DNA of 64,000 nt from Microbispora amethystogenes (GTDB lineage: Bacteria; Actinomycetota; Actinomycetes; Streptosporangiales; Streptosporangiaceae): the NCBI RefSeq assembly GCF_016863015.1, contig NZ_BOOB01000017.1, forward strand, positions 62,001 to 126,000, read 5' to 3'. Below the pieces are notes generated by a model. That model did no database searches and had not been told where the DNA came from. It saw nothing but the letters and a program-made list of their open reading frames with translations. This document shows, one piece after another, positions 52,496 through 55,112 of the stretch. Both the position numbers and the translations under genes were made by a program. The stretch's first letter is position 1. Each line of letters opens with the position of its first letter.

Positions 52496-52572
52496 CACGT
52501 CCTCCTGCCTGTGCCTGTCCGCGTGATCGTAACCCCCCCGCGGACGTCCCCCCGCTCCCTTCGGGGTCTACC

Positions 52573-52905
52573 GTGGAAAACGTGAATCCATGGCGCTGGT
52601 TCAGAAAAGACCGCCCGGTCGTTCACCAGGTGACGGACGCGCAGCCCTCCCTGTCCAACGACATCCGCAAGCGTGAGATCAGTTATCTCATCAAGATGGG
52701 CATCCGGATCGTCTGTCTCATCCTGGCCGTCGCGGTCCCCTCCCCCTGGCCTGTCAAGGCCCTCTTCGTCGCCGGGGCGGTTCTTTTGCCGTACGTTGCC
52801 GTTCTCGGGGCCAATCAGAGAGGTCACGAGCCCCCACCGCGCATGGACTTGACCTCGCCTAACCAAAACGAGATACCACGGCATCGACGCGAGATCGGGT
52901 CGTGA
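52573..52905 (+). CDS. DUF3099 membrane protein
   Basis: 110 residues from GTG 52573 (another GTG at 52582). The DUF3099 core is VHQVTDAQPSLSNDIRKREI then two helices (about 41-56 and 61-79) with the strictly typical MGIRIVCLILAV and SPWPVKALFVAGAVLLPY. Function unknown; the family is restricted to actinobacteria. It lies directly upstream of the 6C-like RNA, whose predicted promoter begins about 8 bp after its stop. Confidence 0.92.
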   Translation: MENVNPWRWFRKDRPVVHQVTDAQPSLSNDIRKREISYLIKMGIRIVCLILAVAVPSPWPVKALFVAGAVLLPYVAVLGANQRGHEPPPRMDLTSPNQNEIPRHRREIGS

Positions 52906-52912
52906 CAAAGTC

Positions 52913-52944
52913 TTGACGCAACCCATGGGTTGGAGGTGTACAGT
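52913..52944 (+). promoter_or_regulatory. predicted promoter of the C-loop RNA
   Basis: TTGACG at 52913-52918 and TACAGT at 52939-52944 resemble housekeeping sigma -35 and -10 boxes; the 20-bp gap is longer than ideal (TGTACA at 18 bp is an alternative). Transcription would begin near 52950, just before the first hairpin. Confidence 0.5.
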
Positions 52945-53065
52945 TTAGCCAAGCGCTCTGGTCCCCCGTCGGAGCGCTAGTGCCGGCGTTCCGGGCCCCC
53001 GTCGGAACGCCGATGAAGCGACGCCGGGTGGTTTGCCCCCGTAACCACCCGGCGTCGCCCTTTTC
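52945..53065 (+). ncRNA. 6C-like small RNA with three C-rich hairpin loops
   Basis: Three successive hairpins: stem AGCGCTC/GAGCGCT (52952-52978), loop TGGTCCCCCGTCG; stem of 9 bp around GGCGTTCC (52984-53012), loop GGGCCCCCGTC; and a perfect 16-bp stem (53018-53058), loop TGCCCCCGT, followed by CCTTTTCC. All three loops share CCCCCGT although the stems differ, which no protein-coding or plain terminator explanation gives. This is the plan of the actinobacterial 6C RNA (two C-loop hairpins plus a terminator), whose loops are thought to pair with G-rich ribosome sites. Here loops have five C rather than six and the terminator shares them. Confidence 0.75.
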
Positions 53066-53169
53066 CAGGATCTTTCCCTTTCCGGCTTTCTCCGGCCTGC
53101 GATGTTTGCTATGTGCACCCTTTTCGCCCGGCGACCGGAAAGCGCCCGTTCCCGCGCCACTTACGGGGG

Positions 53170-53424
53170 TCAGTCGCCCAGGGTCTCGGCGGTCTCCTTC
53201 GCCCAGTCCTTCGCCATCCGCGACAGCCGCCCGGCGGCCTCCGGCCCGGCGGTGCCGGCTCCCTGCGCGAGCCCGAGCAGGTAGGCGGTCAGCGGCGCGG
53301 CCGGCCGCGCCACGCCGTGCGCGACATCCCTGGTGAGGTCGAGCACCAGAGTCCGGTCCACCTGGGCGGGGTCGACGCCGAGTTCGCGGCAGACCCGGGC
53401 CGTCCACTCCTCCAGCACGTTCAC
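53170..53424 (-). CDS. DUF6457-type small protein
   Basis: 84 residues, GTG at 53424 overlapping the mobA stop by GTGA. The sequence NVLEEWTARVCRELGVDPAQ through TRDVAHGVARPAAPLTAYLL and GLAQGAGTAGPEAAGRL is a compact all-helical protein found after mobA/moaA-type genes in actinobacteria (DUF6457). The link suggests a role in molybdenum cofactor supply, but no activity is known to me. Confidence 0.8.
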   Translation of the reverse strand: MNVLEEWTARVCRELGVDPAQVDRTLVLDLTRDVAHGVARPAAPLTAYLLGLAQGAGTAGPEAAGRLSRMAKDWAKETAETLGD

Positions 53425-54110
53425 GCGCGCTCCCTTCGTTCGCCGGCCCGGACACGGGCCGCGCGGAGATCCTCGATGCTGTCGCAGTCGAACCACGGCG
53501 GCGCCGCCCCCGCCGCCAGGCGCACCGGCACCGGCGTGAGCGGGCCGAGCAGCCCCCGCAGCGACCGGCCCTCGTACGCGCCCAGCGCGGCCCGCAGCGC
53601 GGCCGTCCGCCAGGCTCCGGCGAGCCACTGCTCCCGGCCCGTGTCGTCGACGAGCACCGCCCCCGCCGCACCGGCCGAACCACCGCCCTCGCGCAGCGCG
53701 GCCAGCAATTCGGCGACGTGGGCGGCCTCGAGGAACGGCAGGTCGGCGGCGAGCAGGACGACCGACGGAGACGTCACCTCGGCGAGCCCGGCGCGCAGCG
53801 CGGGGACCGGCCCGCCGCCCGGCGGGTCCTCCCTGGTGAAGACCACTCCGGGCAGGTCCCTGGGCGGGCCCGCGACGATCACGGCGCGGGCCGCGCGGAC
53901 CGCCGCCACCACCCGCTCGACGAGCGGCACCCCGCCGACCAGCGCGCCCGGTTTGTCCGCGCCGCCGAGCCTCTCGGCCCGGCCGCCCGCGAGGATCACC
54001 GCGTCGTACGGCTGACCGCCGCCGGCCTCGCCTGCGCCGGACTGGCCTGTGCCGGACTCTTCTGTGCCGGACTCTTCTGTGCCGGACTCTTCTGTGCCGG
54101 ATAGCCGCAC
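53421..54110 (-). CDS. mobA: molybdenum cofactor guanylyltransferase-like protein
   Basis: 229 residues from GTG 54110. After a head of repeated SGTEE units encoded by a 15-bp DNA repeat, the Rossmann-like core starts YDAVILAGGRAERLGGADKPGALVGG, the NTP-transferase signature with the LAGGRAxRxGGxDK form of MobA. LLAADLPFLEAAHV contains the metal-binding Asp. It should attach GMP to molybdopterin. 12 bp downstream of moaA and coupled to the DUF6457 gene. The repeat head is absent from usual MobA proteins. Confidence 0.88.
   Translation of the reverse strand: MRLSGTEESGTEESGTEESGTGQSGAGEAGGGQPYDAVILAGGRAERLGGADKPGALVGGVPLVERVVAAVRAARAVIVAGPPRDLPGVVFTREDPPGGGPVPALRAGLAEVTSPSVVLLAADLPFLEAAHVAELLAALREGGGSAGAAGAVLVDDTGREQWLAGAWRTAALRAALGAYEGRSLRGLLGPLTPVPVRLAAGAAPPWFDCDSIEDLRAARVRAGERRERA
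54036..54101. repeat. 15-bp tandem repeat at the mobA start
   Basis: Three perfect copies of GCCGGACTCTTCTGT (54051-54095), one diverged copy before and a part-copy after, encoding SGTEE units. In-frame unit length; copy changes would only lengthen or shorten the N-terminal head. Confidence 0.9.
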
Positions 54111-54122
54111 GGAGACCCCCGG

Positions 54123-55112
54123 TCAGCCGCCGATGGCCGACATCGGCCGGGCCGGCTGGAGGAAGGCGGAGTCGTCGATGCCGTGCCCGGCCTTCTTGCC
54201 CCGCACCGCTGCGACCCAGCGCGCCGCCAGGTCGTCGTCGGAGGCGCCCGAGCGCAGCGCCGTACGCAGGTCGGACTCCTCGGTGGCGAACAGGCAGTTG
54301 CGCACCTGGCCGTCCGCGGTGATCCGCACGCGGTCGCAGGCACCGCAGAACGGGCGGGTGACCGAGCCGATCACGCCGACCCTCCCGGGCCCCCCGTCCA
54401 CCAGGAACAGCTCGGCGGGAGCGCTGCCGCGCTCGCGCGGGTCGTCCTCCGTGAGGTCGAAGGAGTCCTTCAGCAGCCCGAGGATCTCGTCGGCCGTCAC
54501 CATGTCGTCGCGGCGCCAGCCGTGCTGGGCGTCGAGCGGCATCTGCTCGATGAAGCGCAGTTCGTATCCCCGGTCGAGGCAGTGACGCAGCAGCGGCACG
54601 GCGTCGTGCTCGTTGATCCCCCGCATCAGCACCGCGTTGACCTTGACCGGCGTGAGCCCGGCGGCGGCCGCCGCCGCGAGGCCGTCCAGCACGTCGTGCA
54701 GGCGGTCGCGATGGGCGAGCCGGGCGAACACCTCCCGGTCGAGCGTGTCGAGCGAGATGTTGACGCGGTCGAGCCCCGCCTTCGCGAGCGGCTCGGCGAG
54801 CCGGGCGAGGCCGATGCCGTTCGAGGTCAGCGACACCTGCGGACGCGGGCGCAACGCGGCGGCGGCGGTGACGATGTCCACGAGCTCGCGTCTGAGCAGC
54901 GGCTCGCCGCCGGTGAAGCGGACCTCCCGGATGCCCAGCCGCTCCACGCCGATCCGCACCAGGCGGACGACCTCCTCACCGGTGAGCAGGTCGGGCTTGG
55001 GCAGCCAGTCGAGGCCCTCGGGCGGCATGCAGTACGCGCACCGCAGGTTGCACCGGTCGGTCAGCGACACTCGCAGATCGGTCGCGACCCGGCCGAAGGA
55101 GTCAACCAGCAC
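54123..55112 (-). CDS. moaA: GTP 3',8-cyclase
   Basis: 329 residues from GTG 55112 with GGAGGTCC just upstream. Radical SAM cluster CNLRCAYC (CX3CX2C, about residues 21-28), FTGGEPLLRREL, then the C-terminal second cluster in RPFCGACDRVRITADGQVRNC. The final two residues are the conserved GG tail (SAIGG). It turns GTP into 3',8-cyclo-dihydro-GTP, the first molybdenum cofactor step. Heads a moaA - mobA - DUF6457 run. Confidence 0.96.
   Translation of the reverse strand: MLVDSFGRVATDLRVSLTDRCNLRCAYCMPPEGLDWLPKPDLLTGEEVVRLVRIGVERLGIREVRFTGGEPLLRRELVDIVTAAAALRPRPQVSLTSNGIGLARLAEPLAKAGLDRVNISLDTLDREVFARLAHRDRLHDVLDGLAAAAAAGLTPVKVNAVLMRGINEHDAVPLLRHCLDRGYELRFIEQMPLDAQHGWRRDDMVTADEILGLLKDSFDLTEDDPRERGSAPAELFLVDGGPGRVGVIGSVTRPFCGACDRVRITADGQVRNCLFATEESDLRTALRSGASDDDLAARWVAAVRGKKAGHGIDDSAFLQPARPMSAIGG

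Follow-up and report, generated by a model that had tools for sequence, protein, structure and literature searches.

The question raised by this locus is whether a short interval carrying C-rich hairpin loops in Microbispora amethystogenes is a form of the known actinobacterial 6C RNA or a different regulatory RNA, and by which means it might act. The interval lies in a 64,000-nt stretch of the genome (contig NZ_BOOB01000017.1, positions 62,001 to 126,000), here called the window, and its features are collected in Table 1. Three hairpins with CCCCCGT loops, the last with a 16-bp terminator stem, had been described there in an earlier note, and this description was borne out by sequence and fold, coordinates included. 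The small-RNA gene occupies window positions 52952-53058 of the forward strand, with stems of 9, 10 and 16 bp that each present the 9-nt loop NNCCCCCGU. The predicted fold of the interval has an energy of -80 kcal/mol and a z-score of -6.14, none of 200 dinucleotide shuffles being equally stable, and the opposite strand of the same interval folds with a z-score of -3.87. The last hairpin has the make-up of an intrinsic terminator, a GC-rich stem (16 bp) and then a T run (CCTTTT); it was absent from the list of a simple terminator scan of 52500-53500, because that scan demands 5 T in 8.

Table 1. Features of the RNA gene and its two flanking genes in window coordinates.
Feature	Position	Strand	Description	Basis
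DUF3099 gene (PF11298)	52573..52905	+	upstream neighbour	Pfam, 83.1 bits
-35-like hexamer TTGACG	52913..52918	+	TTGA(C/T), 21 nt, TANNNT precedes the RNA in 92/92 family loci	
-10-like hexamer TACAGT (TANNNT)	52939..52944	+	position fixed in 92/92 family loci	
Hairpin 1	52952..52978	+	9 bp, stem 52952-52960 / 52970-52978, loop GUCCCCCGU 52961-52969	fold
Hairpin 2	52984..53012	+	10 bp, stem 52984-52993 / 53003-53012, loop GGCCCCCGU 52994-53002	fold
Terminator hairpin	53018..53064	+	16 bp, stem 53018-53033 / 53043-53058, loop UGCCCCCGU 53034-53042, then CCTTTT to 53064	fold
moaA (Radical_SAM + Mob_synth_C)	54123..55112	-	downstream neighbour	Pfam

Upstream of the hairpins, a promoter-like pair, TTGACG and TACAGT separated by 20 nt, ends about 7 nt 5' of hairpin 1, and transcription would be expected to start near 52950-52952. 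Promoter spacing is usually 16-18 nt, and 20 nt is unusually long; a simple promoter scan of 52500-53500 listed no promoter, since it allows only this usual spacing. TANNNT is the form of the -10 motif reported for S. coelicolor (PMC4895711, in excerpt). In this genome the spacer contains a perfect palindrome, CAACCCATGGGTTG, at 52919-52932, and in this it resembles MerR-type promoters, which have overlong spacers with a palindrome. A role for the palindrome was rejected: the spacer has the same length across all 92 loci from the host's family, while the palindromic sequence changes and is lost in more distant relatives.

Within the family of the host, a search with the DUF3099 protein led to 42 loci, all 42 with the RNA, in Microbispora, Planotetraspora, Sphaerimonospora, Acrocarpospora, Herbidospora, Streptosporangium and others; the M. 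triticiradicis protein is 96% identical to that of the host. A DNA search matched the RNA in 96 of 100 genomes of the family, and the other four had no match either with a covariance model of the three-loop family form (model R1), in a search run without a positive control. The family set comprised 92 loci, 42 found by protein, 30 from the best DNA matches and 20 distant ones, some genomes being represented twice. One pattern fits all 92, namely TTGA(C/T), 21 nt, TANNNT, two CCCCCG(T/C) loops and TTGCCCCCGTA, which confirms that three C5G(U/C) loops and the promoter spacing recur beyond chance in related loci.

An alignment of 35 sequences less than 93% alike, taken from 71 distinct ones, was used for the analysis of covariation. 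In it 98.7% of the cells are paired and 20 of the 35 pairs show two-sided changes; none of these measures was reached by any of 500 shuffles, and sliding the partners by 1-3 columns as a control left just 1-5 pairs with two-sided changes. Such changes affect all nine pairs of hairpin 1 (97.5% of cells paired), five of the ten of hairpin 2 (98.0%) and six of the 16 of the terminator hairpin (99.8%), and RNAalifold on the family alignment recovers the same three helices. Each of the three loops keeps C5G unchanged (35/35 sequences), and mean identity is 0.85-0.94 in the stems and 0.64-0.71 in the linkers. For the terminator loop this invariance is partly built in, because the anchor used to select the aligned sequences contains that loop; the loop is nevertheless kept in 92 of 92 loci, including the 42 found by protein only. 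G.U cells number 70 and A.C cells 4, and therefore the RNA is read from the forward strand. The stems thus covary and the loops do not, as foreseen in the earlier note, which had taken the loops to be under selection.

That note had also called the stems unrelated, which holds for the terminator stem, unlike those of both other hairpins, but fails for hairpins 1 and 2. In the Microbispora sequence, 13 of the 16 bases in their eight loop-proximal pairs are equal, with a mean of 5.6 in shuffles of pair order (p 0.007); over 25 distinct forms, picked by pattern from the 92 loci, the agreement averages 10.4 of 16. Because the two stems are alike and other families have a single upstream hairpin (for example GCGCUCCG-CAUCCCCCGU-CGGAGCG), these sequences suggest that hairpins 1 and 2 arose by duplication within the host's family.

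Relatives of the RNA were found well beyond that family. The three-loop model matched 110 of 394 genomes of the class, weakly outside the host's family, and 20 of the non-family loci, on inspection, held a two-hairpin RNA composed of one CCCCCGU hairpin and a C5GU terminator. For this two-hairpin core a second model (R2) was used, whose alignment has two-sided changes in 16 of 26 pairs, a value reached by none of 500 shuffles. It matched 140 of the 394 class genomes, in 16 families including that of the host, and 13 of 396 genomes in a phylum-wide draw, all 13 belonging to the same class. When 20 class genomes lacking a match were searched again with laxer filters, none matched at E <= 0.001, the nine f4 and f33 genomes among them included, and three weak matches appeared, the best at E 0.017. 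From outside or apart from the family locus 40 loci were fetched. Three of these (L141-L143; 32-35 bits with the three-loop model) were rejected, because they lack all six neighbour genes as well as a C5GU loop on the terminator; the count of 110 genomes includes the one in G194. The remaining 37, from 15 families, are part of roughly 99 non-family genomes matched by the core model, and the search models were trained partly on such loops.

The terminator loop of these 37 loci reads C5GU in 23, C6GU in 11, C7GU in two and C4GU in one, so that, with C4-C7-GU in 37 of 37, it is the most constant element, albeit one that the search model favours. In the region of the upstream hairpin, read from several folds, CCCCCGU was found in 22 loci, CCCCCGG in three and a C7 loop in one, and 11 loci are without a C-loop there. 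The loop of L205 and L129 appears only in a longer folded piece, and L132 was read from one fold. The number of C-loops therefore varies from one to three between lineages, and among the loci inspected the three-loop form is limited to the host's family. Upstream of the RNA in some other families (L137 at 984-1015, L189, L192 and L200) lies a block like TGACATCGATYCRTGYAAT, which may mark a promoter or operator of another type than in the family of the host. One of the genome families, f18, would be Streptomyces, because a model of the RNA scr5239 matched three of three f18 genomes tested and none of four others; Streptomyces would then be among the 15 further families.

The plan of the RNA invites comparison with 6C (RF01066; B11 in mycobacteria), to which the earlier note had likened it. 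Both are short actinobacterial RNAs with C-rich loops on stable stems, and the loops of the present RNA would be likely to pair with G-tracts at ribosome sites as those of 6C/B11 do. The 6C gene of the host itself lies on another contig (62.3 bits) and folds as two C-loop hairpins, with CTTTTT immediately after the second; a C-rich loop in the terminator hairpin, which had been seen as a departure from 6C, is therefore a shared trait. This likeness in plan, C-loop hairpins of which the last is the terminator, is what speaks for a diverged copy of 6C, a reading that we regard as very improbable. The 6C model, a search with which had been proposed as a check, gave no match of 47 bits or more in the window and none on 52800-53200 even at E <= 5, and the core model in turn fails to find the 6C gene of the host, its sole match in L001 lying elsewhere, at 10.4 bits. 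Of 128 class genomes searched for the 6C RNA, 72 gave a match, 57 of these above the cut-off, and in the 38 genomes with both 6C and a core-model match the two RNAs, compared by eye, lie at different places. As defined in excerpts of PMC8388888 and PMC4046766, 6C has two stem-loops with about six or more C each, and it is placed near the Ms1 RNA gene with one gene between (PMC6582537, in excerpt), whereas the loops of the present RNA have five C and then GU and number three in the host's family, and its stems and neighbours differ as well. Membership in 6C was rejected on these grounds, namely the lack of a model match, the separate 6C gene in the same genome and the blindness of the core model to 6C. 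Of the 6C-like RNA proposed in the earlier note, the plan stands, a structured RNA of about 105 nt with C-loops, and the identity with 6C does not; the observation is confirmed and its interpretation partly supported. Among the outcomes that the note had named as refuting, the lack of a 6C model hit did occur, and a lack of stem covariation did not. The RNA is a strongly conserved gene of a family distinct from 6C, built like it and, by analogy, probably working like it.

Nor was the family found among catalogued RNAs. At gathering level Rfam 15 gave no match in the window, and none in 19 of 20 non-family loci, 16 of those 19 being accepted relatives; a Streptomyces-type member had weak matches only at E <= 2, the best being FinP with 18.8 of 45 bits. 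On 52800-53200 seven Rfam matches were obtained up to E = 5, and the best sub-threshold scores belong to Burkholderia ncS035 (19.8 bits, E 0.017, the lowest) and alphaproteobacterial ar7 (18.1 bits, E 0.18). Both of these have several hairpins with C-rich loops, an analogy only, but they come from another phylum and the scores are far under the curated cut-offs (79 bits for ncS035, 60 for ar7). The Streptomyces RNAs scr5583 and scr1434 (Moody 2013, PMC3765725, in excerpt) are likewise conserved and expressed and have a predicted C-rich loop; they are named after other genes, and were set against this RNA by description only. A literature search on the locus and on C-loop or conserved RNAs, which extended to excerpts of PMC8269224, PMC9130861, PMC11678152, PMC8079986, PMC3897704, PMC4681348, PMC2864571 and PMC2422843, turned up no description among the papers listed, and no publication was found that pairs DUF3099 with an sRNA. 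With no match in Rfam 15 and no published account found, the family seems to be uncatalogued, though its Streptomyces member may well be listed in some supplementary table.

The genomic setting is shared as well. The RNA is placed between the DUF3099 gene and the convergent moa/mob genes, DUF3099 being near it in 78 of 92 family loci and 31 of the 37 others, and moaA inside the fetched stretch in 56 and 28, respectively; one or other of these two is present in 78 of 92 and 34 of 37. At least one of the six window neighbours named by Pfam (DUF3099, DUF6457, MobA-like, MoaA, Dodecin, PmbA/TldD) occurs in the fetched stretch of 91 of 92 family loci and of all 37 others, and the sole family locus without any, L076, starts near a contig end. 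In S. coelicolor the locus presumably corresponds to SCO1821 to SCO1823. The start of the mobA-like gene contains short tandem repeats (54045-54100) with a unit of about 15 bases, GTEES in the protein, and the sequence directly past moaA varies between related species.

This position between convergent genes, together with the strong terminator at the end of the RNA, would suit hairpins that serve only as the end of the DUF3099 mRNA or as an insulator between it and moaA, with no role in trans. We hold this to be improbable, as in every one of the 92 loci the conserved promoter, at fixed spacing, lies past the DUF3099 stop, and as an invariant C5GU loop and two more covarying hairpins are needless for termination.

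We rather favour, at somewhat better than even confidence, a stand-alone gene for a small regulatory RNA. In this reading the gene is about 105 nt long, carries a promoter and an intrinsic terminator of its own and belongs, as the three-loop form, to an actinobacterial family that acts as antisense through its C5GU loops; transcription, antisense action and the role of loop number are what we infer here. The RNA would be transcribed from its own promoter and end at the intrinsic terminator, and its C5GU loops would serve as single-stranded seeds for ACGGGGG-like stretches at or near the ribosome sites of several mRNAs, blocking translation in trans in the manner of the C-loop pair of 6C/B11. 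The terminator loop, present in every member seen, would be the core seed and the upstream hairpin a second one, and the duplication of that hairpin in the host's family would provide a third, raising avidity. The precedent is B11 of M. abscessus as reported in excerpts of PMC10470900, where ribosome sites complementary to B11 are enriched among the genes whose expression goes up in its absence, one C-loop, whichever of the two, is enough for repression of an eccB4 reporter through the G-tract of its ribosome site, and compensatory changes restore repression. By this analogy the RNA probably silences genes through base pairing with G-rich mRNAs.

Complementarity to the loops was examined in two 400-kb stretches from two other genomes of the host's family, with crude gene calls giving 567-568 starts. 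In 64 of 567 genes the 25 nt 5' of the start contain a loop complement 6 nt long or longer, with 30 and 26 in control windows; loops with a shuffled core gave a mean of 57 genes (sd 20), and 96 of 294 such loops reached 64 or more. Since shuffled loops reach similar counts, the excess is attributed to the ordinary G-richness of ribosome sites, and no loop-specific excess was seen at the 567 starts of these two genomes. The full ACGGGGG lies near three of 568 starts, ranking 38th to 40th of its 42 permutations, and in the two stretches as a whole it is the fifth rarest of the 42. In the window it occurs 18 times against 30.7 expected from dinucleotides (99 of 100 shuffles contain 18 or more), and three of the 18 are the other strand of the RNA gene itself. 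The G-rich ribosome sites of the window, which the earlier note had put forward as partners, were accordingly rejected as general targets. The ribosome site of the neighbouring mobA was also rejected as a conserved target; it contains CGGGGG here, but such a stretch follows the moaA end in three of 51 loci, these being the ones among the 92, some genomes counted twice, where the moaA end pattern was found. Ortholog pairs between the two 400-kb stretches numbered 78, too few for a target test. The scarcity of ACGGGGG would be consistent with a small set of specific targets, with avoidance of an RNA present in large amounts, with codon bias or with a protein partner.

The last of these would make the RNA a sponge, its repeated C5GU loops docking an RNA-binding protein that is thereby titrated, as CsrB does with CsrA. 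An identical loop motif on three hairpins, including the U or C after C5G, a loop number of one to three between lineages and the lack of a loop-specific complement signal in mRNAs would all agree with such a role. We nonetheless judge it unlikely, though less so than a mere transcription end: to our knowledge no C5GU-binding protein is known in these bacteria. In addition, B11/6C, the closest tested relative in plan, works by pairing (PMC10470900, in excerpt).

A broader proposal can be put forward tentatively, at somewhat less than even confidence. Alongside 6C, the RNA would represent another class of C-loop regulators in actinobacteria, with the C5GU loop of the terminator as the ancestral seed; some lineages would have that loop only, most would have added one C-loop hairpin, and the host's family would have duplicated this hairpin to reach three seeds. 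If this is true, a single hairpin serves both termination and target recognition across many genera. The finding adds to the actinobacteria, Streptomyces-type genomes included, a widespread and apparently uncatalogued family of small RNAs, and its lineages, with one, two or three copies of the same seed loop, form a natural series for studying how strongly and how widely an RNA regulates as the number of loops changes.
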